A stretch of 64,000 bases of DNA from Hexactinellida sp. DTS-2022 (Eukaryota > Porifera > Hexactinellida). Under the pieces are notes generated by a model. The model ran no database searches and was not told the DNA's origin. It saw nothing but the letters and a program-made list of their open reading frames with translations. Position numbers and translations under genes: made by a program. Below are positions 32,141-60,117 of this stretch, piece after piece (positions within the stretch are counted from its first letter, which is position 1; the number at the start of each line of letters is the position of its first letter). The DNA lies in contig JAPNXP010000012.1 in NCBI GenBank assembly GCA_028753945.1, forward strand, positions 1,612,001 to 1,676,000, given 5' to 3'.

Positions 32141-32263
32141 AAAATCCAAAATTGCACCCTGTGCCGACGCATGTTCCTTTGGTGGCACTATATTTTGGTG
32201 GTGGTTTATTGATAGTGCCTCCAAAGGAGCATGCTGTCGGCGCAGGCTGCAATTCTGGATTTT
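32141..32263 (+). repeat. hairpin H1
   Basis: Copy of the ~122-bp hairpin (arms about 51 bp, loop about 20 nt). Short flank type: aagtcatcaacgcccaaggtgt follows. One arm has gcaccctg where the other keeps the complement of gcagcctg. Confidence 0.9.
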
Positions 32264-33004
32264 TTTCGCCAAGTCATCAACGCCCAAGGTGTGAAGAACC
32301 ATTTGTTAATTGGTCGGAGTCACAAGGAACGGTAGATAAATTTGAAGTTAGTTTCTATCATAAACCATCTTGAGTTTAATGCCATTCATTCATTATTTAT
32401 TGATAATAAGTTATATTATTAGTTATTTATTTTAGCAATGTTATCCATGGTTGGTTGAGTTGAGTCAACAAATTCCTTATATTATATATTATTTAATTTA
32501 ATCAATTGTATAGTAATACTAGAATTAAATAGAAGCCAGCTGGAATTTATAAGTAAAATCAATATAATTATCGCAAGTTGAATCACTAGAGTAGGATTTA
32601 ACAAGTTAAATCAATATAATTATTACAAGTTGAAACAATGGAATTAGATTTAACAGTTATACTGAAACTGAAGTGTGAGTAAACAAAGAAATTTCAACCC
32701 CCATTTATGGCAGAAATAAAACTCTTTATTGAAAGTTTTCTTCTCCCATCAGACGCAGAATTTTATGGTGAATCCAAATGTGAATTAAAATTTGGGGGTT
32801 TAGTAAAACATATTTTGTGTTATGGACCAGACAAACTTTTAAAGGTGTTAAAGATGTGTCAAAAATTTGTTAATCAAAAATCGTAACCCCAGGTGCAAAT
32901 TAGACGGTCCCATCGCACCTACATGCCAAGTTTCAGCCCATCAACTATAAAGCTCAGGCCAGGGCACCGTCTACGGAGAAAAAAAATATAATAATAATAA
33001 TAAA

Positions 33005-33125
33005 AAAATCCAAAATTGCAGCTGTGCCGACGCATGTTCCTTTGGTGGCACTATATTTTGGTGGTGGTTTATTGATAGTGCCTCCAATGGGACATGCTGT
33101 CAGCACAGCTGCAATTTTGGATTTT
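33005..33125 (+). repeat. hairpin H2
   Basis: Hairpin copy preceded by (ata)n; long flank type follows. Confidence 0.9.
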
Positions 33126-34228
33126 TTTTTGGCCATGTCATCGTCACTATGAAGGTGTTAAAATATTTCAAAAGGTGTTACAGAAGGCATCGACCCTTAG
33201 AGTGGCGGAAGTTTCCATTTAGTTCACTTCATTTTAGAGATATTCAAGTTTGAGTAGAATATAATAGCTGATGACTCAGCATTTTTCTGAAAGTGTTGGG
33301 TCATCACCCAACTTCAACTAACCCATTTTAAATATCGAATTAACAAGATTGTAAAAACACACTTTTTTTACGATGTCATCATCACCTCAAGGTGTCAATA
33401 CCCATTTGTAGAGGTGTTACGTGACATAAGGATCAATTAATAAATTGGAAGTTTGTTTCTATCTTATTTGAATTCTGAGATTTATGATATTTAATTAATT
33501 AGTATAAATAATTATTAATATTATTTATAATATAACACCAATTTCAATGTCAACTTACAATTATTAAGTTAAATTATTTTGTCATAAATAATTAATTAAT
33601 TAATTTGGTAATCAAATTTCAATTCCGCACACTCGATAACCCCTATTACACAAATTGGAAGCATCTATATAAGTCATATACTGACTGAATTAATTATATT
33701 TAATTACGTCAGTCTATTAACAGTGCAAGAATATTCTCGCAGAAATAAATATAATCACTTAATCTGTCGTTGTTGTGGAATGTAAAATCTTAGGTTTCAA
33801 TTAGAAAATAGAAGCCTACTCGATCTCACAAGTTGAATCAATATAATTATTACAAGTTGAAACAATGGAATTAGATTTCACAGTTTACTGAAATTGAAGT
33901 GTGAGTAAACAAAGAAATTTCAACCCCTTTTTATGGCATGAATTAAACCGTTTATTAAAATTTTCTTCTCTCATCAAACACAGAATCTTATGATGAATCC
34001 AATCGTAAAATAATATTTGGGGGTTTAGTAAAACATATTTTGAGTTATGGATCAGACAAATTTTGAAAGGTGTTAAAGATGTGTCAAAATTTGTTACTCA
34101 AAAATCGTAACCCCACGTACACATCTGTAACCCATGAGACACCCATCTTAAAAATTTGGGCTCTTAATTAATAAAACTCTGTATTGTGGAGTGGCTACGG
34201 ATAAAAAATAATAATAATAATAATAATA

Positions 34229-34352
34229 AAAAATGCAAAATTGCAGCCTGTGCCGACGCATGTTCCTTTGGTGGCACTATATTTTGTTGGATGTTTATTG
34301 ATAGTGCCTCAGAAGGAACATGCTGTCGGCACAAACTGCAATTTTGGATTTT
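34229..34352 (+). repeat. hairpin H3
   Basis: Hairpin copy preceded by (taa)n; left edge aaatgcaaaattg has one change from aaatccaaaattg. Confidence 0.9.
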
Positions 34353-35432
34353 TTTTCGCCAAGTCATCATCACTTTGAATGTGTTTGATTATTTCAGAAA
34401 GGTGTTTCAGAAGGCAACGACCCTTAGAGTTGTGGAAGTGTCCATTTAGCTCACTTCATTTGAGAGATATTCAAGTTTCAGTATAATATAATAAGTGATG
34501 AGTCAGCATTTTTAAGTGAGTGTTGGGTGATCACCCAACACCAACCAACCCACTCGCAAAATATAATTCATAAAAGTGTAAAAACACATTTTTTGACGAT
34601 GTCATCATCACTTCAAGGTGTCAAGACCCATTGGTAGAGGTGTTACGTGGCATAAGGATCAATTGATAAATTGGAAGTTTGTTTCTATCTCGTATAATAT
34701 CTGAGATTAATGATATTTAATTAATTAGTATAAATAATTATTAATTTATTAATAATTTAACACCATTATTATGTTCAGCAAAATAAATGAAGTTCAATTA
34801 TTTGCAATAATTATTAATTTAAATTTATTTTCACCATCATATTTGAATTCAGCGCACTCGATAACCCCAATAATCTAATTGGAACCGTCTCTATAAGTTA
34901 AACACAGAGCGAATTAATTAGAATTAATTATGTCATGTATCCATTGTGCAAGAATATTCTAAGCAGAAATAAATATAATCACATAATCTGTCGTTGTTAT
35001 GAAATATATAATCCTAGTTTTCAATTAGAAAATAGAAGCCTACTCGATCTCACAAGTGGAATCAATATAATTATCACAAGTTGATACAATTTAATTAGAT
35101 TTAACACTTTCAATTGAACTGAAGTGTTAGTAAACAATGGAAACTTGCAACTCAATTGTGGCACAAACTAAGTACAATTTGAAAATTCGTGCACTGTGAA
35201 AAGGTGTAGAATTTAATTCTCTATCGAATGCATATAAACTTAATTTTGGATGCTATTTATTGTTCCTGTTTCAATATTAAACAGGTGCAAAAATGTGTCC
35301 AAAAAAGTGTAATTAAAAATCGTGACCCCAGGTGCACATCTGTAATCCATGTGACACATATCCTGAAAATTTGGGCTCTTAGTTAATAAAACTCTGTTCT
35401 GTGGACGATCTACGGACTAATAATAATAACCA

Positions 35433-35677
35433 AGCCAGTAAGATTAGAACTGGGCCACTATACAATAGTATAGTCGGCACAGTAATAATAATAAAGGCAG
35501 TGATTCCAATACTGGGCCACTATACTATAGTATAGTCGGCACAGTAATAATAAAGGCAGTGATTCTAATACTGGGCCACTATACTATAGTATAGTCGGCA
35601 CAGTAATAATAATATACAATAAAGGCAGTAAGATTAGAACTGGGCCACTATAATATAGTATAGTCGGCACAGTAAAA
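35433..35677. repeat. four short palindromes (gggccactata...tcggcaca), block P1
   Basis: Four tandem units of about 60-70 bp: aaggcagtgattccaatact, then a 35-nt imperfect palindrome centred on ctatactatagtatag, then aataataat. No full hairpin follows this block, unlike the others. Confidence 0.85.
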
Positions 35678-36408
35678 ATGTCAACATCCTAGATTCGGAG
35701 AATTCCCACAACGGAGTTTGACGTAGTCTCGGAATGGGATTAGTAGGGGCCATAGGTTAGTCCATTACGGTGACATTGGGAGGCCATTGCACAATGGTAT
35801 TTCATTTGGCAAACTTTTGTATGTCCATGGCCCTACCAACCATACCAGAGCCTACGCCTTTGTATTGTTAATTTATAGATGCACATTTAAACACATTTAC
35901 TTCATAATTAGAAGGTAATTACTCATTTACTCACTATACATTCTCAACTGAGTGATATTGATAAGCTGATTTAACAGCAAAACCAGCTATTAAACCAACT
36001 AACAACACAACCAGCTTATCAATAAACTCAACATTAATTTGAAAATGTGTCGCGATTAATTATGTTCTGTTTATGGTGAATGTATTGAAAACTATATGTA
36101 TTGGAGATTAAACTGGTGGCTTGAGTGAAATTGTTTGAATTCGCGAGTAGATTAGGATAAATATTTATTACGAGCCTATAATCTCGTTCGTTTTTGCTAG
36201 GGAATACTTAACTATTCCACTTAATTCATCATCATGCATAATTTACACTTTACCACGCAATATAATTAACTTACAAAAGGATTGATTGATTTTCGTATTG
36301 ATTTTGTCAAATCTTCAATATTAATCTATATACGTACTATATTATACTAGTTTGCTTACTTACTTATATTTTAAAATATTAATCTTATTCTTAGTAATTA
36401 ATTCCCCA
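35678..36408. other. no gene seen
   Basis: AT-rich sequence. A small inverted pair (gataagctg and cagcttatc) lies at about 35960-36025. Phrases at 35690-35870 (aattcccacaacgg, ccatggccctaccaacc) are unassigned. Confidence 0.35.
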
Positions 36409-37055
36409 ACTTTAACAACAAACAGAACTCATTTGCAAGTACATATGTAGTTAATTCTAAATTCGTATTTAGATACTATGCAATTACTTAAAATAACCGC
36501 TAGTCTCTATGTTAATATGTAATATTCCTTAATTTGTTTACCTATATTGTCAATAACAACAATAAATAGACATAATATAAATTTGTGAGTGTTAAATTCG
36601 TATTCAGCATACTTGTTTACCTAGTATTAACATTTGGAAGTGAACAAATAAAGGGATTAGATCAGGGATATAATTAATTTTTAACAACCCATAATATTTA
36701 GTTAAACATTTTCTATATAAGTATTACTCAATCTCACCTGGTACTCTCGCCTAGGCGAGAATGAGTTTCAGGCGAGATTGAGACTCAATCTCGCCTGAAA
36801 CTCAATTTCGCCTACAACATATACGTATAGTATATTTGTGGTGTCATCATTAAATGGCGCCTAAACAGCTTAACCACAGATCTGAGATTCTCAAAAGTTT
36901 TTCTAATGGAATAGCTATGGTTGACTACCCCATATACAACCCAAATAATATCAATAGGAGGCATAGTTTATCCTAGAATGAATTTTATAAACTGGCCTTC
37001 TAAATTTCTCGGTGACATACACGGCCGTATATTAAGTAGGCCATGAATAGCGCTT
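36409..37055. repeat. unsplit copy of the dispersed repeat (reference for 15.25-20.03 kb)
   Basis: It is continuous here and, read inverted, matches 15255-15480 followed directly by 19445-20031. The tract at 36735-36815 has aggcgagattgagt repeats on both strands. Confidence 0.8.
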
Positions 37056-37074
37056 ATGAATTATACAAATACAG

Positions 37075-37265
37075 TACAGTCGAAATCGGGTTTTTTGCCA
37101 CGGGTTTTTTTGCCTCTCCGGGTTATTTTGCCTCCTTGCTTCTCCTTGTTTCTTCATAACCTCATAACACTGTCTAATGTAAAATACGGGTTTTTTTGCG
37201 TATCGGGTTTTTTGCCTCTTTTTCCATGCATTTACGGGGGCAAAAAAAACCCGATTTCGACTGTA
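37075..37265. mobile_element. TA-flanked MITE, gtcgaaatcgggtt family, intact
   Basis: The ends tacagtcgaaatcgggtttt and its complement are bounded by TA. The interior alternates gggttttttgcc phrases. A relic is at 22290-22464. The ORFs on both strands here are repeat translations. Confidence 0.9.
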
Positions 37266-37664
37266 TATCCCTTCTGGAGAAATCCTGGAGCAGACCCAAT
37301 GTAAGCTCCCATCATGATGGATCTGGATACTATTCATCCGGGCTTTAAGAAATTGGCGATTCTATAGAACGTGATAGAATTTGTCAAAAGATGCTTAAAC
37401 TTTAACACACAGTCATGGGCGCCGTACCAGGGGGCAGGTGGGACCTAAGGCTCCTTCCCTTCATGGTTTTCATGATTAATAATTATAATTATTGTTGTTA
37501 TTATAAAGGCTCGACCCAGACCTATGATACGACAATCCAAATCCCATAAGGCGGTAAATGGATTCGTCAAGGCAGCTACAGTTCGCGAGTATACATTTTA
37601 CATTTGAAGGAATCTAAATAATTCTGATAACATAGGTACTCATATTCTTAAAATTTAGTTTAGT
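37266..37664. other. no gene seen
   Basis: Nothing recognised. A taattattgttgttattata palindrome-like phrase lies near 37487. Confidence 0.3.
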
Positions 37665-37712
37665 TACCGTATATATTCGAATAGTAGCACCCCCCCCCCC
37701 TCGGATAATTTC

Positions 37713-38535: not shown

Positions 38536-38960
38536 AATTTCCCCCCAAAGAAGCAATTTAAAATTTATAACCGCTGCCTGGAGAAAACATCTTTATGAAA
38601 TGCAAGTCTTAATACGATTATCAACCGACTACTTATTATAAATAAATGTGATATTCTCGAAATTTCTTAAGATTTTTGGTCCAAAATGGGGTAAAGAACA
38701 ATAATCGCCTAGGCTACTATTCGAGCAAATACGGTAGTTTGTTTGTGAAATAACGCAAAGTTTATAACAGTTTGACAATCTAGTGTTTTAAAGTTACATT
38801 AATTGTATTCAAATTTCTGACATGTAATATTGTTCTCAAAGTTCTAGGCTTCCAAAAGAAGTTACTAGGGGATTCTAATTATGGGGGCCCGGCTCCGAGT
38901 ATAATTGATCAAATGTTCGGCGCCCCTGCACACAGTATGTAATATATGCAGGAATACAAA

Positions 38961-43649: not shown

Positions 43650-44990
43650 TCAGTAGGCAGCAGCGTGCTTGCTCCCGCCTCTCCCCTTCTTCTGGTTTTC
43701 CTCGTACTTTTGTCTGGCTTTCTGGTGCAGCAGAGAGCAGCGCTGCTTCAGCTCTTGAGTCCTGTCCAGCATCTGCTGGTGGATGGGGGGCGGCTCCTTC
43801 CTGATTATTACATGCGCCTCCTGCGCGTCTATCTTAGCAACCAGATTCTTCTCCTGAATGTACTTAACAATCCATTGCTCGGCCTGCGCCTCGCTCAGGT
43901 GCATGCACTCGGCTAGCATACTCAGGGATATGCACTGGTATATCGCGATAAAGTTCTGCAGCACTGCGCGTCGGGCCGCCTCCAGGAACGGCTGGAAGCA
44001 TCCGGTCAGGAAGAAGTCATTCTGCACTACCTCGAAGCAGACGGCGAGTCTCTCCCGCGCGCGAGGGAAGTCGAAGTCTCTGAAGAGAGCGATAAGGAAC
44101 TCCACCACCGGGTCTCCCGTCTGCACGCGTGTATCCGTGAGGAACTGCAGCAGCCGCTTGAGCGTGTCCCCTCTGGAACTGAGCAGCGCCGCCACTGCGA
44201 AGTAGCGGAACAGATAAGGACAGTAGTGCTGCACTGTAGAGAGCAGCACTCGATCCTCTCGCAGCTCCTGGTCCGACCCGACGATTATCTGCACCAGGCG
44301 GTCCAGTCCGTCCTCGTGATGGAAGAATACGAACAGACTCCAATGCAGCCACCAAGCGCGTCTCTCCTGGCGCTGCTCCTGGCTGCCCGGCCCTCTCTCG
44401 ATCTCCTCTCGCAGCTCATCCAGACTCTTCAGAGCGTCGTCGAACCGCTGCAGCAGGATCTCGCAGGCCAGCTGGCCCCAGTGCGCGCTGGAGACTGTCT
44501 CCTGATCACAGCTGGAGTCTATCAGCGAGAAGAACCATGTCAGCGTGCTCAGCGCGAATCCATAGTCCCCGCACTCGTAATTAAGCTTTGCGAACTGGTA
44601 CAGGTCTGCTATCATCCTGTCCATGTCTGCTCTCTCCTCCGCCAGCCTAGCCGGGTCGCTCTCCGGCTTCCGACACTCTCCGCTCTGCAGTTTGACTACC
44701 ACCAGCTCCTTCTTCTGCTCGGCGGCTACGTACTCCTCCCGGACTCTGCGCTGCGCCTCCAACAGCTCCGGGGGCGTGTCCCCGCCTTCCAGCTCCTGGT
44801 GCGTCTGTATGACGTAGTCCACCATCTTGCTCTGGGAGAGGATGTGCAGCTTAGTACGGGTTACAACGTCGGACGAGTAGAGGGACCGCTTGGATAGGAA
44901 CTCCATTATAGGAAGTGTCATGTGTGCGTCGAAGTAATGGCATATCTTAGGAGTTAGATCGTACTGTACCAGGTCTGTAGCAGTAGACAT
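43650..44990 (-). CDS. EIF3E: eukaryotic translation initiation factor 3 subunit E (eIF3e/INT6-like)
   Basis: A subunit of the cytoplasmic eIF3 complex, which binds the 40S ribosomal subunit and supports mRNA recruitment. From the Met at 44990 the protein is 446 aa, essentially the usual animal length (about 445). YDLTPKICHYFDAHMTLPIM and EFLS (residues 10-33) match the eIF3e N-terminus. YQFAKLNYECGDYGFA (131-146), HWGQLACEILLQRFDDAL (170-187) and WWLHWSLFVFFHHEDGLD (213-230) match the helical repeats. NDFFLTGCFQPFLEAAR (324-340) and IYQCISLSMLAECM (350-363) match the PCI/winged-helix end. The frame is open 25 codons further upstream, but the family match and length favour the internal Met. 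It has no introns and is strikingly GC-rich against AT-rich flanks. The tail (KYEENQKKGRGGSKHAAAY) is unusual. It is divergent overall, so it could be the sole gene or a retrocopy. Antisense frames inside it are shadows. Confidence 0.92.
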   Translation of the reverse strand: MSTATDLVQYDLTPKICHYFDAHMTLPIMEFLSKRSLYSSDVVTRTKLHILSQSKMVDYVIQTHQELEGGDTPPELLEAQRRVREEYVAAEQKKELVVVKLQSGECRKPESDPARLAEERADMDRMIADLYQFAKLNYECGDYGFALSTLTWFFSLIDSSCDQETVSSAHWGQLACEILLQRFDDALKSLDELREEIERGPGSQEQRQERRAWWLHWSLFVFFHHEDGLDRLVQIIVGSDQELREDRVLLSTVQHYCPYLFRYFAVAALLSSRGDTLKRLLQFLTDTRVQTGDPVVEFLIALFRDFDFPRARERLAVCFEVVQNDFFLTGCFQPFLEAARRAVLQNFIAIYQCISLSMLAECMHLSEAQAEQWIVKYIQEKNLVAKIDAQEAHVIIRKEPPPIHQQMLDRTQELKQRCSLLHQKARQKYEENQKKGRGGSKHAAAY

Positions 44991-45068
44991 AGCTACTGAG
45001 TAGTTATGTGAGTATTCTGCAAATGGTATTTGGTTAATTAATTTTAAAGGAATTACTTTGTTCACTCA

Positions 45069-45182
45069 GGGAGGGCTGTATCAACTCATTTTGAGTTGAT
45101 ACAAATTTCTCTCTGCCCACTCATTAATATAAACTGTACCAACTCATTCATTTTGATGTAACCAACTCTTCAACTCATTCAG
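45069..45182. repeat. truncated aactcattc-family MITE
   Basis: gggctgtatcaactcatttt followed by caactcattcattttgatgt resembles the left part of 12842-13321. The right end is replaced by hairpin H4 of the array. It begins three bases beyond the upstream end of the eIF3e open frame. Confidence 0.6.
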
Positions 45183-45184
45183 AA

Positions 45185-45312
45185 AAAATCCAAAATTGCA
45201 GCTGTGCCGACGTATTTCCCTTTGGTGGCACTATCTATTGGTGGCTACCGGTTGGGTAATTGATAGTGCCTCCAAGGAAAATACTGTCGGCACAGCTGCA
45301 ATTTTGGATTTT
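45185..45312 (+). repeat. hairpin H4, divergent subfamily
   Basis: The arms read gtatttccc and ggaaaatac where the others have gcatgttcc and ggaacatgc, so two substitutions are matched on both arms. The loop also differs (ggtggctaccggttgggt). Confidence 0.85.
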
Positions 45313-45790
45313 TTTTCGCCATGCCATCATCACTATGAAGGTGTTAAACCATTTCAGAAAGGGAAATAATGAAAAAGATAACAATTATATAATTTATATT
45401 TTAATTTAATTTATACTTCGCTAGAATTAATTTGTACTTCAATAGAATTAGCTAAACAGAAATGTGCAGGTGGAGTCATGCAAGTAATGTCCAAAACTCA
45501 ATATGTGCAGTGAATTAAAGACTTACTCTCGACCAATTAAACTACAGCTTCGGTTAGGCTTCTATATGCACACTAACAATTGATAGAAAATCCTTTTATA
45601 CTAATTGGATGCTAGCTGCTAATCCATACTAGGACAACCCTTGAATTTAATTGGATTAAATAGGTGTTAAAATTATTTGAGCATAAATCGTAACCCCAGG
45701 TGCAAATTAGAAGGGCACTCCGCACCTCATGCCAAGTTTCAGCTCTCTATGTATAAAGGTGTGGCCAGGGCACCGTCTACGGAGAAAAAG

Positions 45791-45913
45791 AAAATCCAAA
45801 ATTGCAGCCTGTGCCGACGCATGTTCCTTCGGTGGCACTATATTTTGTTGGTGGTTTATTGATAGTGCCTCCAAAGGAACATGCTGTGGGCGCAGGCTGC
45901 AATTTTGGATTTT
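45791..45913 (+). repeat. hairpin H5
   Basis: Hairpin copy; short flank type follows. Confidence 0.9.
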
Positions 45914-46631
45914 TTTTCCGCCAAGTCATGAACGCCCAAGGTGTGAAGAACCATTTGTTAATTGGTCCGTGTCACAAGGAACGGTAGATAAATTTGAAGT
46001 TTGTTTCTATCATAAACCATCTAGAGTTTAATGCCATTCATTCATTATGTATTGATAATAAATTATATTATTAGTTATTTATTTTAGCAATGTTATCCAC
46101 GGTGAGTGAGTTAAGTCAACAAATTCCTTATATTATATTATTTTATTTAATCCATTGTATAGTAATACTAGAATTAAATAGAAGCCAACTGGAATTTCTA
46201 AGTTAAATCAATATATTTATCGCAAGTTGATACAATAGAGTAGGATTTAACAAGTTAAATCAGTATAATTATATGAAGTTGAAACAATGAAATTAGATTT
46301 AACACTTTTTCTGAAATTGAAGTGTGAGTACACAAGGGAAATTTTCAACTCAATTGTGGCACAATCTAAGCCCAATTTAAAAATTCGTGCACTGTGAAAA
46401 GGTGTAGAATTTAATTCTATATCCAAATATGTAAATTTTATGAAGCTCACTATTTAGTATTTAATGATATGAAGTATAATTAGATTAAATTGGTGTTAAG
46501 AAAATTTGAACGGATATAGTAACCCCAGGTGCAAATTAAAAGGTCACTTTGCACCTACATGCCAAGTTTTAGCCCTTAATGTATAAAGGTGAGGGCAGGG
46601 CACCATCACGGAGAAATAATAATAAAGGCAG

Positions 46632-46880
46632 TGATTTCAATACTGGGCCACTATACTATAGCAGGGCCGTAGCCACCAAAATCAAAGTGGTCAGGTTAAT
46701 CTGACCAACCTGACAGAGTGGTCAGGTTAATCTGACCAACCTTACCGAGTGGTCAGGTTATTCTGACCAACCTGACCGAGTGGTGCAATATTGGGAAATT
46801 AATCAACCAAAAGTGGTCAGGTTGAAACCTGACCAACCTGACCAGTGGCTACGGCCCTGTATAGTATAGTCGGCACAGTA
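46632..46880. repeat. short palindrome P2, split by a MITE
   Basis: One gggccactatactatag...tatagtcggcaca unit, interrupted by the insertion at 46662-46859. It directly precedes hairpin H6. Confidence 0.85.
46662..46859. mobile_element. hAT-type MITE inserted at the centre of palindrome P2
   Basis: The ends cagggccgtagccac and its exact complement enclose repeats of gtggtcaggtt and aacctgaccac. The flanks share tatag (46657-46661 and 46860-46864), a 5-bp TSD read against the intact palindromes elsewhere. Confidence 0.85.
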
Positions 46881-46882
46881 AA

Positions 46883-47005
46883 AAAATCCAAAATTGCAGC
46901 CTGTGCCGACGCATGTTCCTATGGTGGCACTATATTTTGTTGGTTGTTTATTGATAGTGTCTCCAAAGGAACATGCTGTCGCCACAGGCTGCAAGTTTGG
47001 ATTTT
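46883..47005 (+). repeat. hairpin H6
   Basis: Hairpin copy directly after palindrome P2; one arm has gtcgccac for gtcggcac. Confidence 0.9.
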
Positions 47006-48091
47006 TTTCGCCATGTCATCATCACTATGAAGGTGTTAAATTAGTTCAGAAAGGTGTTTCAGAAGGCAACGACCCTTAGAGTGGTGGAAGTTCCCATTTT
47101 GCTCACTTCGTTTCAAATATATTCAAGTTTCAGTACAAAATAATAAGTGATGAGTCAGCATTTTTTATGTGCGTGTTGGGTGATCACCCAAAACCAACCG
47201 ACCCATTTGAATTATATAATTCACATAATTGTGTAAACACATATATTTTACGATGTCATCAACACCTCAAGGTGTCAAGATCCATTTGTAGAGGTGGTAC
47301 GTGGCATAAGGATCAGTTGATAAATTGGAAGTTTGTCTCCATCTTGTATAATCTCTGAGATTTATCAAATTTGGCTTATTTGTCTAAATATTTAATTTAT
47401 TTATTAATAATTTAACACCATTATTATGACAAGCAAAATAAATTAAGTTCAATTATTTGCAATTATTATTAATTTAAATTTAATTTCACTATCATATTTG
47501 AATTCTGCACACTCGATAACCCCAATAATCTAATTTGAACCGTCTCTATAAGTTAAACACAGAGCGAATTAATTAGAATTAAATATGTAATGTATCCATA
47601 GTGCAAGAATATTCTAAGCAGAAATAAATATAATCACTTAATCTGTCGTTGTTGTGGAATGTAAAATCTTAGGTTTCAATTATTAAATAGAAGCCTACTC
47701 GATCTCACAAGTTGAATCAATATAATAATTACAAGTTGAAACAATGGAATTAGATTTAACACTTTCAAGAGTTTCAATTGAATTGAAGTGTTAGTAAACA
47801 AGGAAACTAGCAACTCAATTGTGGCACTAACGAAACCCAATTAAAAAATCCGTGCACTGTGAAAAGGTGTAGAATTTAATTCTCTATCCGTACATGTAAA
47901 TTCTATCAAGCTCAATATTAATTATTTCATGTTATGAGCTATAATTAGTTTAAATAGGTGTTGAAATCATTTGATAAAAAATCGTAACCCCAGGTGCAAA
48001 TTAGACGGTCACTCCGCAACTACATGCCAAGTTTCAGCCCTCAATGTATACAGGTGTGGCCAGGGCACCTGCTACGGAGAAAAAAATAAAA

Positions 48092-48213
48092 AAAATCCAA
48101 AATTGCAGCCTGTGCCGACGCATGTTCCTTTGGTGGCACTATATTTTGTTGGTTGTTTATTGATAGTGCCTCCAAAAGAACATGCTGTCGGCTCAGCTGC
48201 AATTTTGGATTTT
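48092..48213 (+). repeat. hairpin H7
   Basis: Hairpin copy; right arm shortened to gtcggctcagctgc. Confidence 0.9.
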
Positions 48214-49278
48214 TTTGCGCCATGTCATCATCACTATGAAGGTGTTAAATTATTTCAAAAAGGTGTTACAGAAGGCATCGACCCTTAGAGTGGTGGAAGT
48301 TTCCATTTAGTTCACTTCATTTTAGAGATATTCAAGTTTGAGTAGAATATAATAGCTGATGACTCAGCATTTTTTATGTGAGTGTTGGGTCATCACCCAA
48401 CTCCAAGCAACCCATGCAAATTATTTAATTTACAAAATTGTAAAATTCATTTTTTTGAAGATGTCATCATCACCTCAAGGTGTCAAGACCCGCTTGTATA
48501 GGTGGTACGTGGCATAAGGATCAATTGATAAATTGGAAGATTGTTTCTATCTGATATAATTTCTGAGATTAATGAAATTTAGCTAATTAGTATAAATATT
48601 TAATTAATTTATTAATAATTTAACACCAATATTATGTACATCAAAATAAATTAAGTTCAATTATTTGAAATAATTATTAATCTAAATTGAATTTCATTAT
48701 CATATTTGAATTCAGCGCACTCGATAACCCCACTAATCTATTTGGAACCATCTCTATAAGCGAATTAATTAGAATAAAATTCGTCATGTATCCATTGTGC
48801 AAGAATGTTCTAAGCAGAAATAGATAAAATCACATAATCTGTCGTTGTTATGGAATGTAGAATCTTAGTTTTCAATTATAAAATAGAAGCCTACTCAATC
48901 TCACAAGTTGAATCACTAGAATTATCGCAAGGTGAAACAATAGAATTAGATTTAACACTTTCAATTGAACTGAAGTGTTAGTAAACAAGGAAACTAGCAA
49001 CTCAATTGTGGCACTAACGAAACCCAATTAAAAAATTCGTGCACTGTGAAAAGGTGTAGAATTTAATTCTCTATCCGTACATGTAAATTCTATCAAGCTC
49101 AATATTAATTATTTCATGTTATGAGCTATAATTAGTTTAAATAGGTGTTGAAATCATTTGATAAAAAATCGTAACCCCAGGTGCAAATTAGACGGTCACT
49201 CCGCAACTACATGCCAAGTTTCAGCCCTCAATGTATACAGGTGTGGCCAGGGCACCTGCTACGGAGAAAAAAATAAAA

Positions 49279-49400
49279 AAAATCCAAAATTGCAGCCTGT
49301 GCCGACGCATGTTCCTTTGGTGGCACTATATTTTGTTGGTTGTTTATTGATAGTGCCTCCATAGGAACATGCTGTCGGCTCAGCTGCAATTTTGGATTTT
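49279..49400 (+). repeat. hairpin H8
   Basis: Nearly identical to H7, including gtcggctcagctgc, supporting recent duplication of the whole unit. Confidence 0.9.
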
Positions 49401-50483
49401 TTTTTCGCACAGTCATCATCACTATGAAGGTGTTAAATTATTTCAGAAAGGTGTTTCAGTAGGCAACGACCCTTAGTGAGTTGGAAGTTTCCATTTAGCT
49501 CACCTCATTTGAGAGATATTCAAGTTTCAGTAGAATATAATCTGTGATGACTCAGCATTTTTAAAGTGCGTGCTGGGTATTCACCCAACTCCAACCAACC
49601 CATGCGAATTATTTAATTAACAAAATTGAAAAAATACATTTTTTTGACGATGTCATCATCACCTCAAGGTGTCAAGACCCCCTTGTATAGGTGGTACGTG
49701 GCATAAGGACCAATTGATAAATTGAAAGTTTGTTTCTATCTTCTATAATCTCTGAGATTTATGATATTTAATTAATTAGTATAAATAATTATCAATATTA
49801 TTTATAATATAACACGAATTTCATTGTAAACTTACAAGTATTAAGTTAAATTATTTTGTCATAAATAATTAATTAATTAATTTGGCTATCAAATTTCAAT
49901 TCCGCACACTCGATAACCCCTAATAAACAAATTGGAAGCATCGATATAAGTCATATACTGACTGAATTAATTATAATAAATTACGTCTGTCTATTAACAG
50001 TGCAAGAATATTCTCGCAGAACTAAATATAATCACATAATCTGTCGTTGTTGTGAAATATATAATCTTTTTTTTCAACTGGAAAATAGAAGCCTACTCGA
50101 CAAGTTGAATCAATATAATAATAACGAGTTGAAACAATAGAATTAGATGTAACACTTACAATAGAACTGAAGTGTTAGTAAACAAAGGAAACTTGCAACT
50201 CAATTATGGCACAAACGAAACCCAATTTAAAAATTCGTGCACTGTGAAAAGGTGTAGAATTTAATTCTCTATCGAATGCATATAAATTTAATTTTCGGGT
50301 ACCATTTATTGTTCCAGTTTCAATATTAAACAGGTGCAAAAATGTGTCCAAAAAAATGTAATAAAAAATCTTGACCCCAGGTGCACATCTGTAACCCATG
50401 AGACACTTATCCTGAAAATTCCAGTTCTTAGTAAATATAACTCTGTTCTGAGGAGAGGATACGGATAAAAAATAAACCAAGGC

Positions 50484-50531
50484 AGTGATTCCAATACTGG
50501 GCCACTATACTATAGTATAGTCGGCACAGTA
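50484..50531. repeat. short palindrome P3
   Basis: One gggccactatactatag...tcggcacagt unit immediately before the inverted hairpin H9. Confidence 0.85.
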
Positions 50532-50534
50532 ATA

Positions 50535-50655
50535 AAAATCCAAAATTGCAGCCTGCGCCGACAGCATGTTCCTTTGGAGGCACTATTAATAAACAACCAA
50601 CAAAATATAGTGCCATCAAAGGAACATGCGTCGGCACAGGGTGCAATTTTGGATT
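50535..50655 (-). repeat. hairpin H9, inverted copy
   Basis: Its left arm has gccgacagcatg and its right arm catgcgtcggc, the reverse of all other copies. The loop is the complement as well. It heads the flipped segment 50535-51019. Confidence 0.9.
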
Positions 50656-51019
50656 TTTTTTTTTTCTCCGTAGACGGTGCCCTGGCCAGAGCTTTATAGT
50701 TGATGGGCTTAAACTTTGCATGTAGGTGCGATGGGACCGTCTAATTTGCACCTGGAGTAACGATTTTTGATTAACAAATTTTTGACACATCTTTAACACC
50801 TTTCAAAATTTGTCTGGTCCATAACACAAAATATGTTTTACTAAACTCCCAAATTTTATTTCACATTTGGATTCACCATAAAATTCTGCGTCTGATGGGA
50901 GAAGAAAACTTTCAATAAAGAGTTTTATTTCTGCCATAAATGGGGGTTGAAATTTCTTTGTTTACTCACACTTCAGTTTCAGTATAACTGTTAAATCTAA
51001 TTCCATTGTTTCAACTTGT

Positions 51020-51142
51020 AAAATCCAAAATTGCAGCCTGTGCCGACGCATGTTCCTTTGGTGGCACTATATTTTGTTGGTGGTTTATTGATAGTGCCTC
51101 CAATGGAACATGCTGTCGGCACAGACTGCAATTTTGGATTTT
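51020..51142 (+). repeat. hairpin H10
   Basis: Forward copy abutting the flipped segment with no (taa)n between them. Confidence 0.9.
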
Positions 51143-52232
51143 TTTTCGCAAAGTCATCATCACTATAAAGGTGTTAAATTATTTTTTAAGGTGTTTCAGA
51201 AGGCCACGACCCTTAGAGTGGTGGAAGTTTCCATTTTGCTCACTTCGTTCCAAATATATTCAAGTTTCAGTAGAATATAATAAGTGATGAGTCAACATTT
51301 TTTATGTGCATGTTGGGTGATCACCCAACTCCAACCAACCCATGCGAATTATTTAATTCACAAAATTGTAAAAATACATTTTTTTGACGATGTCATCATC
51401 AACTCAAGGTGTCAAGATTTACTTGTATAGGTGGTACGTGCCATAAGGACCAATTGATAAATTTAAAGTTTGTTTCTATCCTATATCATTTCTGAGATTA
51501 ATGAAATTTAGATAATTAGTATAAATATTTAATTAATCTATTTATAATTTAACACCAATATTATGTACATCAAAATAAATTAAGTTCAATTATTTGCAAT
51601 AATTATTAATCTAAATTGAATTTCACTATCATATTTGAATTCAGCGCACTCGATAACCCCAATAATCTATTTGGAACCATCTCTATACGTTAAACACAGA
51701 GCGAATTAATTTGAATTAAATATGTCATGTATCCATTGTTCAAGAATATTCTAAGCAGAAATAAATATAATCACATAATCTGTCGTTGTTATGGAATGTA
51801 GAATCTTAGTTTTCAATTGGAAAATAGAAGCCTACTCGATCTCACAAGTTGAATCAATATAATAATAACGATTGAAACAATAGAATTAGATTTAACACTT
51901 TCAATTGAACTGAAGTGCTAGTAAACAAAGGAAACTTGCAACTCAATTGTGGCACAAACTAAGTACAATTTGAAAATTCGTGCACTGTGAAAAGGTGTAG
52001 AATTTAATTCTCTATCGAATGCATATAAATTTAATTTTCGGGTACTATTTATTGTTCCTGTTTCAATATTAAACAGTTGCAAAAATGTGTCCAAAAAAAT
52101 GTAATAAAAAATCGTGAACCCAGGTGCACATCTGTAACCCATGAGACACCCATCCAAAAAATTAGGGCTCTTAGTTAATAAAACTCTGTTCTGTGGAGTG
52201 GCTACGGATAAATAATAATAATAATAATAATA

Positions 52233-52355
52233 AAAATCCAAAATTGCAGTCTGTGCCGACGCATGTTCATTTGGTGGCACTATATTTTGGTGGTGGCTTA
52301 TTGATAGTGCCTCCAAAGGAACATGCTGACGGCACAGATTGCAATTTTGGATTTT
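52233..52355 (+). repeat. hairpin H11
   Basis: Hairpin copy after (taa)n; gttcatttgg in the left arm is an unmatched change. Confidence 0.9.
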
Positions 52356-53432
52356 TTTTTCGCATTGTCATCATCACTATGAAGGTGTTAAATTATAACA
52401 GAAAGGTGTTTCTGTAGGCAACGACCCTTAGTGAGTTGTAAATTTCGTTTATGCTCACTTCATTTCAAAGATATTCAAGTTTCAGTAGAATATAATAGTT
52501 GATGACTCAGCATTATTTATGTGAGTTCTGGGTCATCACCCAAAACGAATCGACCCATTTGAATTATATAATTCACAAAATTGTGAAAACACATTTTTTT
52601 ACGATGTCATCATCACCTCAAGGTGTCAAGACCCACTTTTATAGGTGTTACGTGGCATAAGGATCAATTGATAAATTGGAAGTTTGTTTCTATCTTATTT
52701 GATTTCTGAGATTTATGATATTTAATTAATTAGTATAAATAATTATTAATAATATTTATAATTTAACACCAATTTCAATGTCAACTTACAATTATTAAGT
52801 TAAATTATTTTGTCATAAATAATTAATTAATTAATTTGGCTATCAAATTTCAATTCCGCACACTCGATAACCCCTAATAAACAAATTGGAAGCATCTTTA
52901 TAAGTCATATACTGACTGAATTAATTATAATTAATTACGTCATTATATTAACAGTGGAATAATATTCTCGCAGAATTAAATATAATCACATAATCTGTCG
53001 TTGTTATGAAATATATAATATTTTATTTCAATTGGAAAATAGAAGCCTACTCGATCTCACAAGTTGAATCAATATAATAATAACGAGTTGAACAATAGAA
53101 TTAGATTAACACTTTCAATTGAACTGAAGTGTTAGTAAACAAAGGAAACTTGCAACTCAATTGTGGCACAAACGAAACCCAATTAAAAAATTCGTGCACT
53201 GTGAAAAGGTGTAGAATTTAATTCTCTATCGAATGCATATAAATTAAATATTCGCGCACTATTTATTGTTCTTTTTCAAATATTAAACAGGTGCAAATAT
53301 GTGTCCAAAAAAATGTAATAAAAAATCGTGACCCCAGGTGCACATCTGTAACCCATGAGACACCCATCCTAAAAATTTGGGCTCTTAGTTGATAAAACTC
53401 TCTTCTGTGGAGTGGATACGGATAAATAATAT

Positions 53433-53554
53433 AAATCCAAAATTGCAGCCTGTGCCGACGCATGTTCCTTTGGTGGCACTATATTTTCATGGTGGTTTAT
53501 TGATAGTGCCTCCAAGGGAACATGCTCTCGGCACAGGCTGCAATTTTGGATTTT
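53433..53554 (+). repeat. hairpin H12
   Basis: Hairpin copy; loop contains tttcatggtggtt. Confidence 0.9.
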
Positions 53555-54885
53555 TTTTCCGCCATGTCATCATCACTATGAAGGTGTTAAATTATTTCAG
53601 AAAGGTGTTTCAGAAGGCAACGACCCTTAGAGTCGTGGAAGTTTCCATTTTGCTCACTTCGTTTCAAAGATATTCAAGTTTCAGTAGAATATAATATGTG
53701 ATGAGCCAGCATTTTTTATGTGAGTGTTGGGTCATCACCCAACACCAACTAACCCATTTTAAATGTCGAATTAAAAAAATTGTAAAAATACATTTTTTTG
53801 TCGATGTCATCATCACCTCAAGGTGTCAAGACCCACTTGTATAGGTGGTACCTGGCATAAGGACCAATTGATAAATTGAAAGTTTGTTTCTATCTAGTAT
53901 CATCTCTGAGATTAATGAAATTTAGCTAATTAGTATAAAAATTTAATTAATGTATTAATTATTTAACACCATTATTATATACAGCAAAATAAATTAAGTT
54001 CAATTATTTGCAATTATTATTAATTTAAATTGAATTTCACTATAATGTTTGAATTCCACGCACTCGATAACCCCAATAATCCAATTGGAACCGTCTATAA
54101 GTTAAATACAAAAGGAATTAATTATAATTAATTACGTCAGTACATTTATTGTGTAAGAATATTCTCGCCGAAATAAATATATTCACTTAATCTGTCGTTG
54201 TTGTGGATTGTAAAATCTTAACAGTTAGTTCTATCATAAACCATCTTGAGTTTAAAGCCAATCATTCAATATTTATTGTTAATAAATTATAGTATTAGTT
54301 ATTTATTTTAGCAATGTTATCCACGGTTAAGTTGAATTTAGTCAACAAATTCCTTATATTATAATATTTATTTAATCCATTGTATAGTAATATTAGAATT
54401 AAATAGAAGCCAGCTGGAATTTCTAAGTTAAATCAATATAATTATCGCAAGTTGAATCACTAGAGTAGGATTTAACAAGTTAAATCAATATAATTATTAC
54501 AAGTTGAAACAATGGAATTAGATTTCACAGTTTACTGAAATTGAAGTGTGAGTAAACAAAGAAACTTCAAACCCCATTTATGGCAGAAATTGACCCCTTT
54601 ATTGAAAGATTTCTTCTCCCATCAGACGCAGAATTTTATGGTGAATCCAAATATGAAATAAAATTTGGGGTTTAGTAAAAGATTTTTTCAGTTATGGAGC
54701 AGACAAATTTTGAAAGGTGTTAAAAATGTGTCCAAAATGTGTTAATAAAAAATCGTAACCCCAGGTGCAAATTAGACGGTCCATACGCACCTACATGCCA
54801 AGTTTTAGCCCATCAACTCCAAAGCTCTGGCCAGGGCACCGTTTACGGAGAAAAAATAATAATAATAATAATAATATTAAAGGCA

Positions 54886-55121
54886 GTAAGATTAGAACTG
54901 GGCCACTATACTATAGTATAGTCGGCACAGTAATAATAATAATAAAGGCAGTGATTCCAATACTGGGCCACTATACTATAGTATAGTCGGCACAGTAATA
55001 AAGGCAGTGATTCTAATACTGGGCCACTATACTATAGTATAGTCGGCACAGTAAAAATAATAATAATAAAGGCAGTGATTCCAATACTGGGCCACTATAC
55101 TATAGTATAGTCGGCACAGTA
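54886..55121. repeat. four short palindromes, block P4
   Basis: Four tandem units as in P1, alternating with aataataat; hairpin H13 follows at once. Confidence 0.85.
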
Positions 55122-55241
55122 AAAACAAAATTGCAGCTGTGCCGACGCATGTTCCTTTGGTGGCACTATATTTTGGTGGTGGTTTATTGATAGTGCCTCC
55201 AATGGAACATGCTGTCGGCACAGGCTGCAATTTTGGATTTT
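55122..55241 (+). repeat. hairpin H13
   Basis: Hairpin copy with a shortened left arm (acaaaattgcagctgtgccg). Confidence 0.85.
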
Positions 55242-56392
55242 TTATCGCCATGTCATCATCACTATGAAGGTGTTAAACTATTTCAGAAAAGTGATTCAAA
55301 AGGCAACGACCCTTAGTGAGTTGGAAGTTTCGTTTTAGCTCACTTCATTTGAGAGATATTCAAGTTTCAGTAGAATATAATATGTGCTGAGTCAGCATTT
55401 CTTAAAGTGCGTGCCCAACTCCAACCAATCCATGCGAATTATTTAATTCACAAAATTGTAAAAATACATTTTTTTGACGATGTCATCATCACCTTAAGGT
55501 GTCAAGATCCACTTGTATAGGTGGTACGTGCCATAAGGACCAATTGATATATTTAAAGTTTGTTTCTATCTTATATCATTTCTGAGATTAATGAAATTTA
55601 GATAATTTGTATAAATATTTAATTAATCTATTAATAAGTAACACCAATATTATGTACATCAAAATATATTAAGTTCAATCTTTTGCAATAATTATTCACT
55701 TAAATTGAATTTAATATCATATTTGAATTCAGCGCACTCGATAATCCCAATAATCTATTTGGAAGTTGGAACCATTTCTATACATTAAACACAGAGCTAA
55801 TTAATTAGAATTAAATATGTCATGTATCCATTGTGCAAGAATATTCTATGCAGAAGTAAATATAATACATAATCTGTCGTTGTTGTGGAATGTAAAATCT
55901 TAGTTTTCAAATAGAAAATAGAAGCCTACTCGATTTCACAAGTGGAATCAATATAATTATCGCAAGTTTAAACAATAGTGTAAGATTTAACAAGTTTAAT
56001 CAATATAATTATTACAAGTTGAAACAATGGAATTAGATTTAACAGTTTACTGAAATTGAAGTGTGAGTAAACAAATAAATTTCAACCCCCATTTATGGCA
56101 GAAATTAAACCCATTACTAAAAATTTCTTTACCCATCAGACGCAGAATTTGAAGATGAATCCATTGATGAAATAAAAATTGGGGGTTTAGTATAACATTC
56201 TTTGAGTTATGGACCAGACAAATTTTGAAAGGTGTTAAAGATTTGTCCAAAATTTGTTAATCAAAAATCGTAACCCCAGGTGCAAATTAGACGGTCCCAT
56301 CGCACCTACATGCCAAGTTTCAGCCCATTAACTGTAAAGCTCTGGCCAGGGCACCGTCTACGGAGAAAAAACAAATAATAATAATAAAAATA

Positions 56393-56515
56393 AAAATCCA
56401 AAATTGCAGCCTGTGCCGACGCATGTTCCTTTGGTGGCACTATATTTTGGTGGTGGTTTATTGATAGTGCCTCCAAAGGAACATGCTGTCAGCACAGGCT
56501 ACAATTTTGGATTTT
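56393..56515 (+). repeat. hairpin H14
   Basis: Hairpin copy after (ata)n; right arm has gtcagcacaggctac. Confidence 0.9.
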
Positions 56516-57594
56516 TTTTCGCCATGTCATCATCACTATTAAGGTGTTAAATTATTTCAGAAAGGTGTTTCAGAAGGCAACGACCCTTAGAGTGGTTGAA
56601 GTTTCCATTTAGCTCGCTTCATTTTAGAGATATTCAAGTTTCAGTAGAATATGATATGTGATGACTCAGCATTTTTTATCTGCGTGTTGGGTATTCACCC
56701 AACTCCAACCAACCCATGCGAAATATTTAATTCACAAAATTGTAAAAATACATTTTTTTGACGATGTCATCATCACCTCATGGTGTCAAGACCCACTTGT
56801 ATCGGTGGTACGTGGCATAAGGACCAATTGATAAATTGAAAGTTTGATTCTATCTTGTAACATCTCTGAGATTAATGAAATTTAGGTAATTAGTATTTAT
56901 ATTTAACAAATTTATTAATTATTTAACACCATTATTATGTACAGCAAATAAATTAAGTTAAATTATTTGCAATTATTATTAATTTAAATTTAATTTCACT
57001 ATGATATTTGAATTCTGCGCACTCGATAACCCCAATAATCTAATTCGAACCGTCTCTATAAGTTAAACAGAGAGCGAATTAATTTGAATTAAATATGTCA
57101 TGTATCCATTGTTCAAGAATATTCTATGCAGAAATAAATATAATCACATAATCTGTCGTTGTTAAGGAATGTAAAATCTTAGTTTTTCAATTAGAAAATA
57201 GAAGCCAACTCGATCTCACAAGTTGAATCAATATAATAATAACGAGTTGAAACAATAGAATTAGATTTAACACTTTCAATTGAACTGAAGTGTTAGTAAA
57301 CAAAGGAAACTTGCAACTCAATTGTGGCACAAACTATGTACAATTTGAAAATTCGTGCACTGTGAAAAGGTGTAGAATTTAATTCTCTATCGAATGCATA
57401 TAAATTTAATTGTCGGGTACCATTTATTGTTCCTGTTTCAATATTAAACAGGTGCAAAAATGTGTCCAAAAAAGTGTGATAAAAAATCGTAACCCCAGGT
57501 GCACATCTGTAACCCATGAGACACATATCCTGAAATTTTGGGTTCTTAGTTAATAAAACTCTGGTCAGTAGAGAGGCTACGGACTAATAATAAA

Positions 57595-57716
57595 AAAATC
57601 CAAAATTGCAGCCTGTGCCGACGCATGTTCCTTTGGTGGCACTACATTTTGTTGGTTGTTTATTTATAGTGCCTCCAAAAGAAGATTCTGTCGGCGCAGG
57701 CTGCAATTTTGGATTT
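57595..57716 (+). repeat. hairpin H15
   Basis: Hairpin copy; right arm gaagattctgtcgg is diverged. Confidence 0.9.
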
Positions 57717-59026
57717 TTTTTCGCCATGTCATCATCACTATGAAGGTGTTAAATTATTTCAAAAAGGTGTTACAGAAGGCATCGACCCTTAGAGTGGTGG
57801 AAGTTTCCATTTAGTTCATATAATTTTAGAGATATTCAAGTTTGAGTAGAATATAATAGCTGATGACTCAGCATTTTTTATGTGTGTGTTGGGTCATCAC
57901 CCAACATCAACTAACCCATTTTAAATATCGAATTAAAAAAATTGTAAAAATACATTTTTTTGACGATGTCATAATCACCTCAAGGTGTCAAGACCCACTT
58001 GTATAGGTGGTACCTGGCATAAGGACCAATTGATAAATTGAAAGTTTGTTTCTATCTTGTATCATCTCTGAGATTAATGAAATTTATCTAGTTAGTATAA
58101 ATATTTAATTTATTTATTTATTATTTAACACCATTATTATATACAGCAAAATAAATTAAGTTCAATTATTTGCAATTATTATTAATTTAAATTGAATTTC
58201 ACTATAATATTTGAATTCCACGCACTCGATAACCCCAATAATCTATTTGGAACCGTCTATAAGTTAAATACAAAATGAATTAATTATAATTAATTAAGTC
58301 AGTCATCAATTGTGCAAGAATATTCTCGCCGAAATAAATATAATCACTTAATCTGTCGTTGTTGTGGAATGTAAAATCTTAACGGTTCTATCATAAACCA
58401 TCTTTAGTTTAATGCCATTCATTCATTATGTATTGATAATAAATTATATTATTAGTTATTTATTTTAGCAATGTTATCCATGGTTGGTTGAGTTGAGTCA
58501 ACAAATTCCTTATATTATATTATTTAATTTAATCAATTGTATAGTAATACTAAAATTAAATAGAAGCCAGCTGGAATTTATAAGTTAAATCAATATAATT
58601 ATCGCAAGTTGAATCACTAGAGTAGGATTTAACAAGTTAAATCAATATAATTATTACAAGTTGAAACAATAGAATTAGATTTAACACTTTACTGAAATTG
58701 AAGTGTCAGTAAACAAAGAAATTTCAACCCCCATTTATGGCAGAAATTGACCCCTTTATTGAAAAATCTCTTCTCCCATCAGACGCAGAATTTTATGGCG
58801 AATCCAAATGTGAAATAAAATTTTCGGGTTTAGTAAAACATTTTTTGAGTTATGGACCAGACAAATTTTGAAAGGTGTTAAAGATGTGTCAAAAATTTGT
58901 TAATACAAAATCGTAACCCCAGGTGCAAATTAGACGTCGACTCCGAATCTACATGCCAAGTTTCAGCCCTCTATGTATACAGGTGTGGCCAGGGCACCTG
59001 CTACGGAGAAATAATAATAATATAAA

Positions 59027-59151
59027 TAAAGGCAGTGATTCTAATACTGGGCCACTATACTATAGTATAGTCGGCACAGTAATAATAATAATAACCAAAG
59101 CACTAAGACCAATACTGGGCCACTATACTATAGTATAGTCGGCACAGTAAT
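59027..59151. repeat. two short palindromes, block P5
   Basis: Two gggccactatactatag...tcggcacagt units separated by (aat)n; hairpin H16 follows. Confidence 0.85.
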
Positions 59152-59274
59152 AAAATCCAAAATTGCACCCTGTGCCGACGCATGTTCCTTTGGTGGCACT
59201 ATATTTTGTTGGTGGTTTATTGATAGTGCCTCCAAAGGAACATGCTGTCGGCGCAGGCTGCAATTTTGGATTTT
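59152..59274 (+). repeat. hairpin H16
   Basis: Hairpin copy; short flank type follows. Left arm gcaccctg as in H1. Confidence 0.9.
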
Positions 59275-59995
59275 TTTTCGCCAAGTCATCAACGCCCAAG
59301 GTGTGAAGAAGCATTTGTTAATTGGTCCGAGTCACAAGGAACGGTAGATAAATTTGAAGTTTGTTTCTACCTTAAACCATCTTGAGTTTGATGCCATTCA
59401 TTCATTATGTATTGATAATAAATTATATTATTAGTTATTTATCTTAGCATTGTTATCCACGGTTGAGTTGAATTAAGTCAACAAATTTCTTATATTATAT
59501 TATTTTATTTAATCCATTGTATGGTAAATTAAATAGAAGCCAGCTGCAATTTATAAGTTAAATCAATTTAATTATCGCAAGGTGAATCAATAGAGTAAGA
59601 TTTGACAAGTTAAATCAATATAATTATTACAAGGTGAAACAATGGAATTAGATTTAACAGTTATACTGAAACTGAAGTGTGAGTAAACAAAGAAATTTCA
59701 ACCCCCATTTATGGCAGAAATAAAACTCTTTATTGAAAGTTTTCTTTTCCCATCAGACGCGGAATTTTATGGTGAATCCAAATGTGAAATAAAATTTGGG
59801 GGTTTAGTAAAACAATTTTTGAGTTATGGACCAGACAAAATTTGAAAGGTGTTAAAGATGTGTCAAAAATTTCTTAATCAAAAATCGTGACCCCAGGTGC
59901 AAATTAGACGGTCCCTCCGCAACTACATGCCAAGTTTCAGCCCATCAACTATAAAGCTCTGGCCAGGGCACCGTCTACGGAGAAAAAATAATAAA

Positions 59996-60117
59996 AAAAT
60001 CCAAAATTGCAGCCTGTGCCGACGCATGATCCTTTGGTGGCACTATATTTTGTTGTTGGTTTATTGATAGTGCCTCCAAAGGAACATGCTGTCGGCACAG
60101 GCTGCAATTTTGGATTT
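59996..60117 (+). repeat. hairpin H17
   Basis: Last hairpin of the array; gcatgatcc in the left arm is an unmatched change. Confidence 0.9.

Follow-up and report, generated by a model that had tools for sequence, protein, structure and literature searches.

Rolling-circle transposons are thought to end replication at a 3′ hairpin, and to our knowledge information on the reliability of this stop comes mainly from a single reconstructed element of bats. The present analysis describes a transposon family with unusually long hairpins from a 64,000-nt stretch of the genome of the sponge Hexactinellida sp. DTS-2022 (GenBank assembly GCA_028753945.1, contig JAPNXP010000012.1, positions 1,612,001 to 1,676,000 of the forward strand), which is called the window in the following. 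The genome that was searched comprises 112.4 Mb in 18 contigs, and the window is located in contig 4. With a probability of roughly 0.9, the hairpins repeated in the window form the 3′ ends of a family of non-autonomous Helentrons (HINEs) that is moved in trans by the Rep/helicase/endonuclease protein of a Helentron in the same genome.

The passages of PMC4067079 on HINE/DINE-1 elements describe deletion derivatives of Helentrons encoding Rep, helicase, and endonuclease, with subterminal inverted repeats (subTIRs) at both ends, an inverted-repeat partner and a microsatellite (in DINE-1), a 3′ palindrome, and T-rich insertion sites, and the sponge family, a putative derivative of such a Helentron, is alike in these respects. 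The 3′ palindromes given there for HINE-Mo have 5–10 bp, whereas the arms have 51 bp here and the hairpin includes the 3′ subTIR. In addition, in contrast to the HINE/DINE-1 elements of these passages, a single element can here contain the complete hairpin-ended unit more than once. According to the cited parts of PMC7492417, the Cg_HINE/Pearl elements of bivalves are widely dispersed and have central repeats between a left module (subTIR, inverted repeat, microsatellite) and a right module (subTIR, palindrome), all of which resembles the present case. The central repeats of these elements are given as 100–500 bp, mostly 160–180 bp, between one left and one right module, whereas the repeated unit has 0.6–1.4 kb here and every copy ends in the right-end hairpin.

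According to the passages cited from PMC5148889, Helitron2 of Fusarium has asymmetric terminal inverted repeats, in some cases hairpins at both termini and a 3′ ATTTT, and inserts between TTTT and T or C; however, it is without endonuclease, and the hairpin sequences quoted there are short. Helraiser, the canonical bat Helitron, shares the Rep/PIF1-helicase transposase and a bypassable 3′ hairpin terminator, but the cited part of PMC4778049 gives a 19-bp palindrome 11 nt from the end and TC/CTAG termini. Canonical animal Helitrons are described as lacking an endonuclease in the part of PMC4067079 that deals with them. In summary, the sponge family works like a HINE and is unlike the described ones in its long terminal hairpin and in the repetition of hairpin-ended units within the element. 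A first reading of the window from its letters alone, called the sequence-only reading below, had regarded the long stem as unusual, and indeed it greatly exceeds the 5–20 bp palindromes given in the cited passages on published elements. A limited literature search (titles and abstract openings) retrieved no description of such a hairpin or of hairpin-ended units repeated inside one element, and a search combining Helentron and sponge retrieved nothing.

In the window, 17 hairpins were counted, each about 123 bp long and with arms of 51 bp; 16 have the same orientation and one is inverted. The consensus of 104 full-length copies has 123 nt and folds into 50 pairs with 1 mismatch, 1 bulge, and a 20-nt loop, with a predicted energy of -88.3 kcal/mol (RNA parameters) or -58.6 kcal/mol (DNA parameters). 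Scan and consensus fold are in congruence with the sequence-only reading, which had listed 17 hairpins with arms of about 51 bp and a loop of about 20 nt, and its (TAA)n runs on the left and T-runs on the right of the hairpins were likewise recovered. Its spacing of mostly 1.09–1.27 kb applies to 9 of the 15 within-array gaps, but not to the other six (0.49, 0.61, 0.84, 0.86, 1.56, and 1.69 kb). The assumption of one continuous array had to be given up. The hairpins form two groups, array A (32141-35673) and array B (45185-60790), and the roughly 9.5 kb between them (about 35.7–45.2 kb) consist of other DNA with an eIF3e gene. The sense strand of the element family is the minus strand of the window. 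In the sense direction, array A consists of four copies of a 5′ module, (TTA)n, an X unit with hairpin H, (TTA)n, a second X unit with H, (TTA)n, and a Z unit with H. The hairpin starts and the features of array A are:

Hairpin starts, array A: 32141, 33005, 34230
Hairpin starts, array B: 45185, 45791, 46883, 48092, 49279, 50657 (minus orientation), 51020, 52233, 53433, 55122, 56393, 57595, 59152, 59996
32141..35673, minus strand: array A, read as one complete HINE with three hairpin-ended units, inserted in the T-run of another repeat
32141..32263, minus strand: hairpin H, 3′ terminus of element A; in sense GGATTTTTT, then host CAGAC
33005..33128, minus strand: internal hairpin H of element A
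34230..34354, minus strand: internal hairpin H of element A
35421..35673, minus strand: 5′ terminal module of element A, about four copies

The hairpin is not confined to this locus, as it would have to be under the refuting condition named by the sequence-only reading. A query of the genome yielded 2138 first-look candidates, 40 of which were scored; these are distributed over many contigs, and 39 of the 40 are outside the window. In total, 110 hairpins were located in the window and in sampled genome loci (numbered with the letter L), and the sense-side context could be evaluated for 107. Behind 70 of them come (TTA)n and the next unit with its TCCGTAG start, and 22 hairpins (23 including one missed by the script) run into the 59-bp palindromic 5′ module of another element. 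A further 12 adjoin DNA unlike the element, and two are located within other copies of the element. On the inner side, a unit body of at least 25 bp is present in 98 of the 110 hairpins and a shorter match with the body following in one, while nine are cut off at a locus end and two are without unit body. Because of this difference between outer and inner side, the edge of the hairpin is regarded as a terminus, one of the roles that the sequence-only reading had considered for it.

If the hairpin were the whole element, i.e. a miniature inverted-repeat transposable element (MITE) with terminal inverted repeats or a foldback element, moved by a DDE transposase and inserted in a pre-existing repeat, unit bodies would not be expected so regularly at its inner side. 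The hairpin alone is a nearly perfect inverted repeat, as this explanation would have it, and it could also accommodate the two bodiless hairpins (50531-50657, inverted, in the window and 7262-7389 in L059). However, both of these have the unit start TCCGTAG on their other side and are not lone insertions in unique DNA; they look like truncations beside a unit start. Together with the lack of a target duplication at the resolved empty site of array A (see below), this makes a MITE or foldback element extremely improbable.

The other terminus is a 59-bp palindromic minisatellite module, ACTGTGCCGACTATACTATAGTATAGTGGCCCAG...(TTA)n, which is found beside (TAA)n runs. Its order is the subTIR ACTGTGCCGAC, then TATACTATAGTATAG, GTGGCCCAG (inverted repeat), and then GGAATCACTGCCTTTA(TTA)n. 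The edges of the arrays end at this module with ACTGTGCC, and TT precedes it in five of six readable flanks (array A, L017, L035, L059, and L061); the exception, L003, also lacks the first bases of the module. ACTGTGCCGAC is the inverted match of GTCGGCACAG in the hairpin. The inverted subterminal repeats are placed asymmetrically, as in the Helentrons and HINEs of the passages cited from PMC4067079, PMC7492417, and PMC5148889: CTGTGCCGAC is separated from the 5′ end by one base, and GTCGGCACAG, within the hairpin, from the 3′ end by 18 bp. As in Helentrons and HINEs, subTIRs are therefore present at both ends, and, as in HINEs, a palindrome, hairpin H, is located at the 3′ edge. The hallmarks of canonical Helitron1 elements (5′-TC, CTRR-3′, and A/T insertion) were not found; the ends are ACTGTGCC and GGATTTT, and the target is a T-run.

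The sites of insertion were analyzed by searching the genome with joined flanks. The joined flanks of array A matched 40 of 40 scored places over 171–174 of 174 bases with 94–95% identity. At the three empty sites that were read, GACATTTT(T)CAGAC is uninterrupted. The filled site reads GACATTTTT|ACTGTG...GGATTTTTT|CAGAC. The sequences show that array A was inserted inside a T-run without target duplication and without loss, which is the T/T insertion of Helentrons and HINEs. For L035, 38 places matched across the joint with 75–85% identity. Three empty sites read GTTATT followed by TTT (two) or ATT (one), and the filled site reads GTTATT|ACTGTG...TTTT|AAATG. This is compatible with a T-rich insertion, with a junction that is not fixed to the base. 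The query with the flanks of L061 returned its own two flanks and otherwise partial matches only. The flanks of array A (32001-32140 and 35674-35800) belong to another repeat family, which has at least 40 scored places without the HINE.

A candidate autonomous partner is encoded in the same genome. Two families with the Helitron_like_N domain (PF14214) were detected, and the weaker-scoring one has many open reading frames (ORFs) near 1700 aa; two checked copies of it are located within a few kb of hairpin arrays. The one copy that was tested (L062:3780-8876) is a single uninterrupted ORF of 1699 aa. It contains Helitron_like_N (2.3e-28), PIF1 (2.7e-24), Exo_endo_phos_2 (7.3e-7, residues 1330-1432), and UvrD_C_2 (above the cut-off), while a match to OTU is below the cut-off (E 0.003) and a DUF6570 ORF is located upstream. 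In this copy, Rep, PIF1 helicase, and a C-terminal apurinic/apyrimidinic-type endonuclease are combined in one ORF, as in Helentrons, and the helicase part matches the Helraiser structure 7lcc. The Rep motif YLRIEFQQRGSPHVH reads RGSPHVH, with S between G and P and a preceding F/Y-x-R; an RGSPHxH-type Rep motif 2 with S is named as diagnostic for Helentrons in the cited part of PMC4067079. Three copies of the canonical Helitron family of the same genome (L040, L043, and L044) have RGLPHAH and long open frames. For that family (220-bit matches, L039-L058), neither the hairpin nor the searched end motifs were found in any of 20 loci of about 3.5 kb. In L063, an open frame upstream of the Helentron gene (1710-4055, frame start only) contains repeats of a RLKNPEKRAKHNNDVAE-like peptide.

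The connection between gene and hairpin was surveyed in several coding copies, and eight coding-tail loci out of 55 matches were covered. In C1, C18, L073, and L074, the coding tail is followed at 0.2–0.7 kb by a correctly oriented hairpin. Behind the coding region of C18, 680 bp with 94.7% identity to unit X end in the hairpin, and the TCCGTAG end is present on the 5′ side. In L071 and L072, the 5′ module is located just upstream of a coding-tail fragment. Taken together, the evidence that the HINE family shares its ends with this Helentron-type gene is favourable but incomplete.

Array B can be divided into four complete elements, a truncated one, and an inverted fragment; the 5′ modules mark the joints, and whole elements follow each other head to tail. 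The unit types X, Y, Z, and K differ in their bodies; common to all are the hairpin plus about 50 bp and the last 110 bp or so. On this reading, the features are:

45185..46877, minus strand: HINE E5, complete, two units (Z-like, K); terminal hairpin 45185-45312; 5′ module 46615-46877, split by a small insertion
46883..50534, minus strand: HINE E4, complete, three X units; 5′ module 50479-50534; hairpins 49279, 48092, and terminal 46883
50531..51019, plus strand: inverted fragment; bodiless hairpin 50531-50657, then a TCCGTAG-side unit piece (U2 1429-1066)
51020..55118, minus strand: HINE E3, complete, Y and two X units; 5′ module 54863-55118 (tandem copies); hairpins 53433, 52233, and terminal 51020
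55122..59150, minus strand: HINE E2, complete, Y, X, and Y-like units; 5′ module 59025-59150; hairpins 57595, 56393, and terminal 55122
59152..60790, minus strand: HINE E1, 5′ part missing beyond 60790 (truncated); hairpin 59996 on an X unit, terminal hairpin 59152 on a Z unit

The inverted piece 50531-51019 is situated between two hairpins, and recombination between the palindromic hairpins could explain the inversion. The insertion in the 5′ module of E5 (46662-46859, about 198 bp) has the inverted ends CAGGGCCGTAGCC...GGCTACGGCCCTG and 31-bp internal repeats, and TATAG on both sides looks, as read by eye, like a 5-bp target duplication.

In all sampled sequence, the script closed 16 elements, one of which (L008 at 235) was dropped due to its partial hairpin. 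The 15 closed elements with an intact terminal hairpin comprise one with one unit, ten with two units, and four with three units. As most sampled loci cover only about 3.1 kb, the count is biased against longer elements; two elements that are not closed have four units or more. Multi-hairpin blocks are shared between separate loci: L002 and L003 have 1764 bp in common at 98.7%, a stretch that starts at the hairpin edge and runs through a second hairpin, L006 and L037 have 1861 bp in common at 98.0%, and L008 and L028 have 2486 bp in common at 95.3%, spanning three hairpins. The outer flanks differ within each pair. Blocks with two or three hairpins that are 95–99% alike at separate places indicate that internal hairpins do not always stop transposition. 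The loci were picked by similarity to window sequences, and therefore no rate can be derived from the shared blocks.

Units of about 1.2 kb in tandem, each with a strong hairpin, could also be a cruciform-forming satellite that has grown by local tandem duplication or unequal crossing-over. In that case neighbouring units should be more alike than distant ones, which was not observed. For the X/Y types, the identity is 0.855 within loci (70 pairs) versus 0.847 between loci (633 pairs), and the nearest neighbour is in the same locus at chance level (X/Y 4 of 38 versus 3.8 expected; Z 0 of 21 versus 0.5 expected). This absence of a local excess of similarity argues against the view that the arrays arose mainly by recent local duplication, and local satellite growth was rejected. 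The arrays are, furthermore, dispersed over many contigs, have sharp ends, and in one case an empty site, so that a satellite origin is very improbable.

Under the HINE interpretation, an element consists of one to five 59-bp 5′ modules, (TTA)n, and one to three hairpin-ended units, with the last hairpin as its 3′ end. Rep would act at the 5′ module, and the long hairpin would be the rolling-circle terminator, as the shorter one is in Helraiser. Because the hairpin terminator of Helraiser can be bypassed according to the cited part of PMC4778049, we infer that bypass also occurs here. Occasional bypass and insertion in the T-run behind older hairpins might then generate multi-unit elements and arrays. 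The direct joints between a hairpin and a 5′ module fit the insertion of a new element in the T-run behind an older one. We tentatively propose a multi-terminator HINE, in which every unit carries a full terminator and the rolling circle stops at a hairpin only with some probability; the odds of this specific proposal are somewhat short of even.

For the analysis of conservation, 27 directly hit copies were dropped, which left 77 hairpins, 63 of them with 650 bp. These 63 units (38 X/Y, 21 Z, 2 K, and 2 unassigned) were aligned separately by type, as the bodies are non-homologous. In the 38 X/Y units, the pairwise identity of the arms is 0.953/0.927 compared with 0.76–0.92 over the next 500 bp. 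In the 21 Z units, the arms (0.943/0.948) are no better conserved than most of the body (0.92–0.94). The claim of the sequence-only reading that the arms are far better conserved than the filler is thus valid, to a moderate degree, for X/Y units, but not for Z units.

Stem pairing is intact in 95.1% of the cells (70 distinct rows), compared with a shuffle average of 94.8%. Double stem changes occur in 9 cells in 6 pairs, whereas shuffles give 1.4 on average. The two arms are coupled with respect to a one-base indel, with 48 long/long, 11 short/short, and 7 mixed cases (66 classifiable of 74). Selection on stem pairing is therefore plausible, but not proven. The pairing level and the coupled indel would also be expected if the hairpin were kept mainly as RNA, as a small-RNA precursor or structured transcript, with an incidental transposon context. 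However, the hairpin is found at the terminus of a transposon, a place where such a structure is to be expected, the covariation is not clearly above that of a slid control, and the Rfam search of the window revealed no family at the gathering score. A role mainly as RNA is thus very improbable. A tRNA scan of the window (bacterial code) found none.

The sequence-only reading had compared the arrays with those of non-autonomous Helitron-type HINEs, and this is upheld by the 12 hairpin edges beside DNA unlike the element, the subTIRs at the 5′ and 3′ ends, the empty site in a T-run, and a Helentron-type gene whose coding tail is joined to hairpins or 5′ modules in several copies. The cruciform satellite and the hairpin RNA source, which the sequence-only reading had also named, may still apply as side roles. 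Several results weigh against assigning the family to HINEs mobilized by this gene. The 3′ subTIR is 18 bp from the end here versus 38–60 bp in the mite HINEs of the cited part of PMC4067079. In five of the eight coding-tail loci (L071, L072, L075, L076, and L077), no hairpin was present within 1.3–1.5 kb downstream, and in three of these five, short pieces of the unit body are present close to the locus end. Among autonomous copies, none with both 5′ module and hairpin was read end to end, and thus the hairpin behind the gene could partly belong to a HINE next to it. In copy C1, which looks rearranged, a forward-oriented hairpin is present on the 5′ side. The compensatory stem changes are not convincing, as the control slid by -1 gives 9 cells in 8 pairs. 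Finally, the linkage of units across loci is not significant (45/48 pairs, r=0.18, p=0.12), with r=0.01 for homologous pairs only.

Some other features of the window were noted. The eIF3e gene (43650-45065, minus strand) has 471 aa in a single frame that is open from stop to stop and ends at a distance of about 120 bp from array B. The G+C content of the 2-kb bin 44001-46000 is 48%, compared with about 34% for the window. An inverted repeat at 15775-17201 and 17974-19400 has 1427-bp arms that are 99.93% identical and 772 bp apart. A 336-bp tandem dimer and its inverted copy with 98% identity are located at 21412-22082 and 26603-27264.

The case shows a transposon building satellite-like 1.2-kb arrays without local duplication. 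A natural family with several complete terminal hairpins per element, and with blocks common to separate loci, could make terminator bypass countable across a genome. If the proposal of a multi-terminator HINE is true, elements with one, two, and three units could be released as a ladder from the same locus, and the unit number would be a fossil record of the frequency of bypass.

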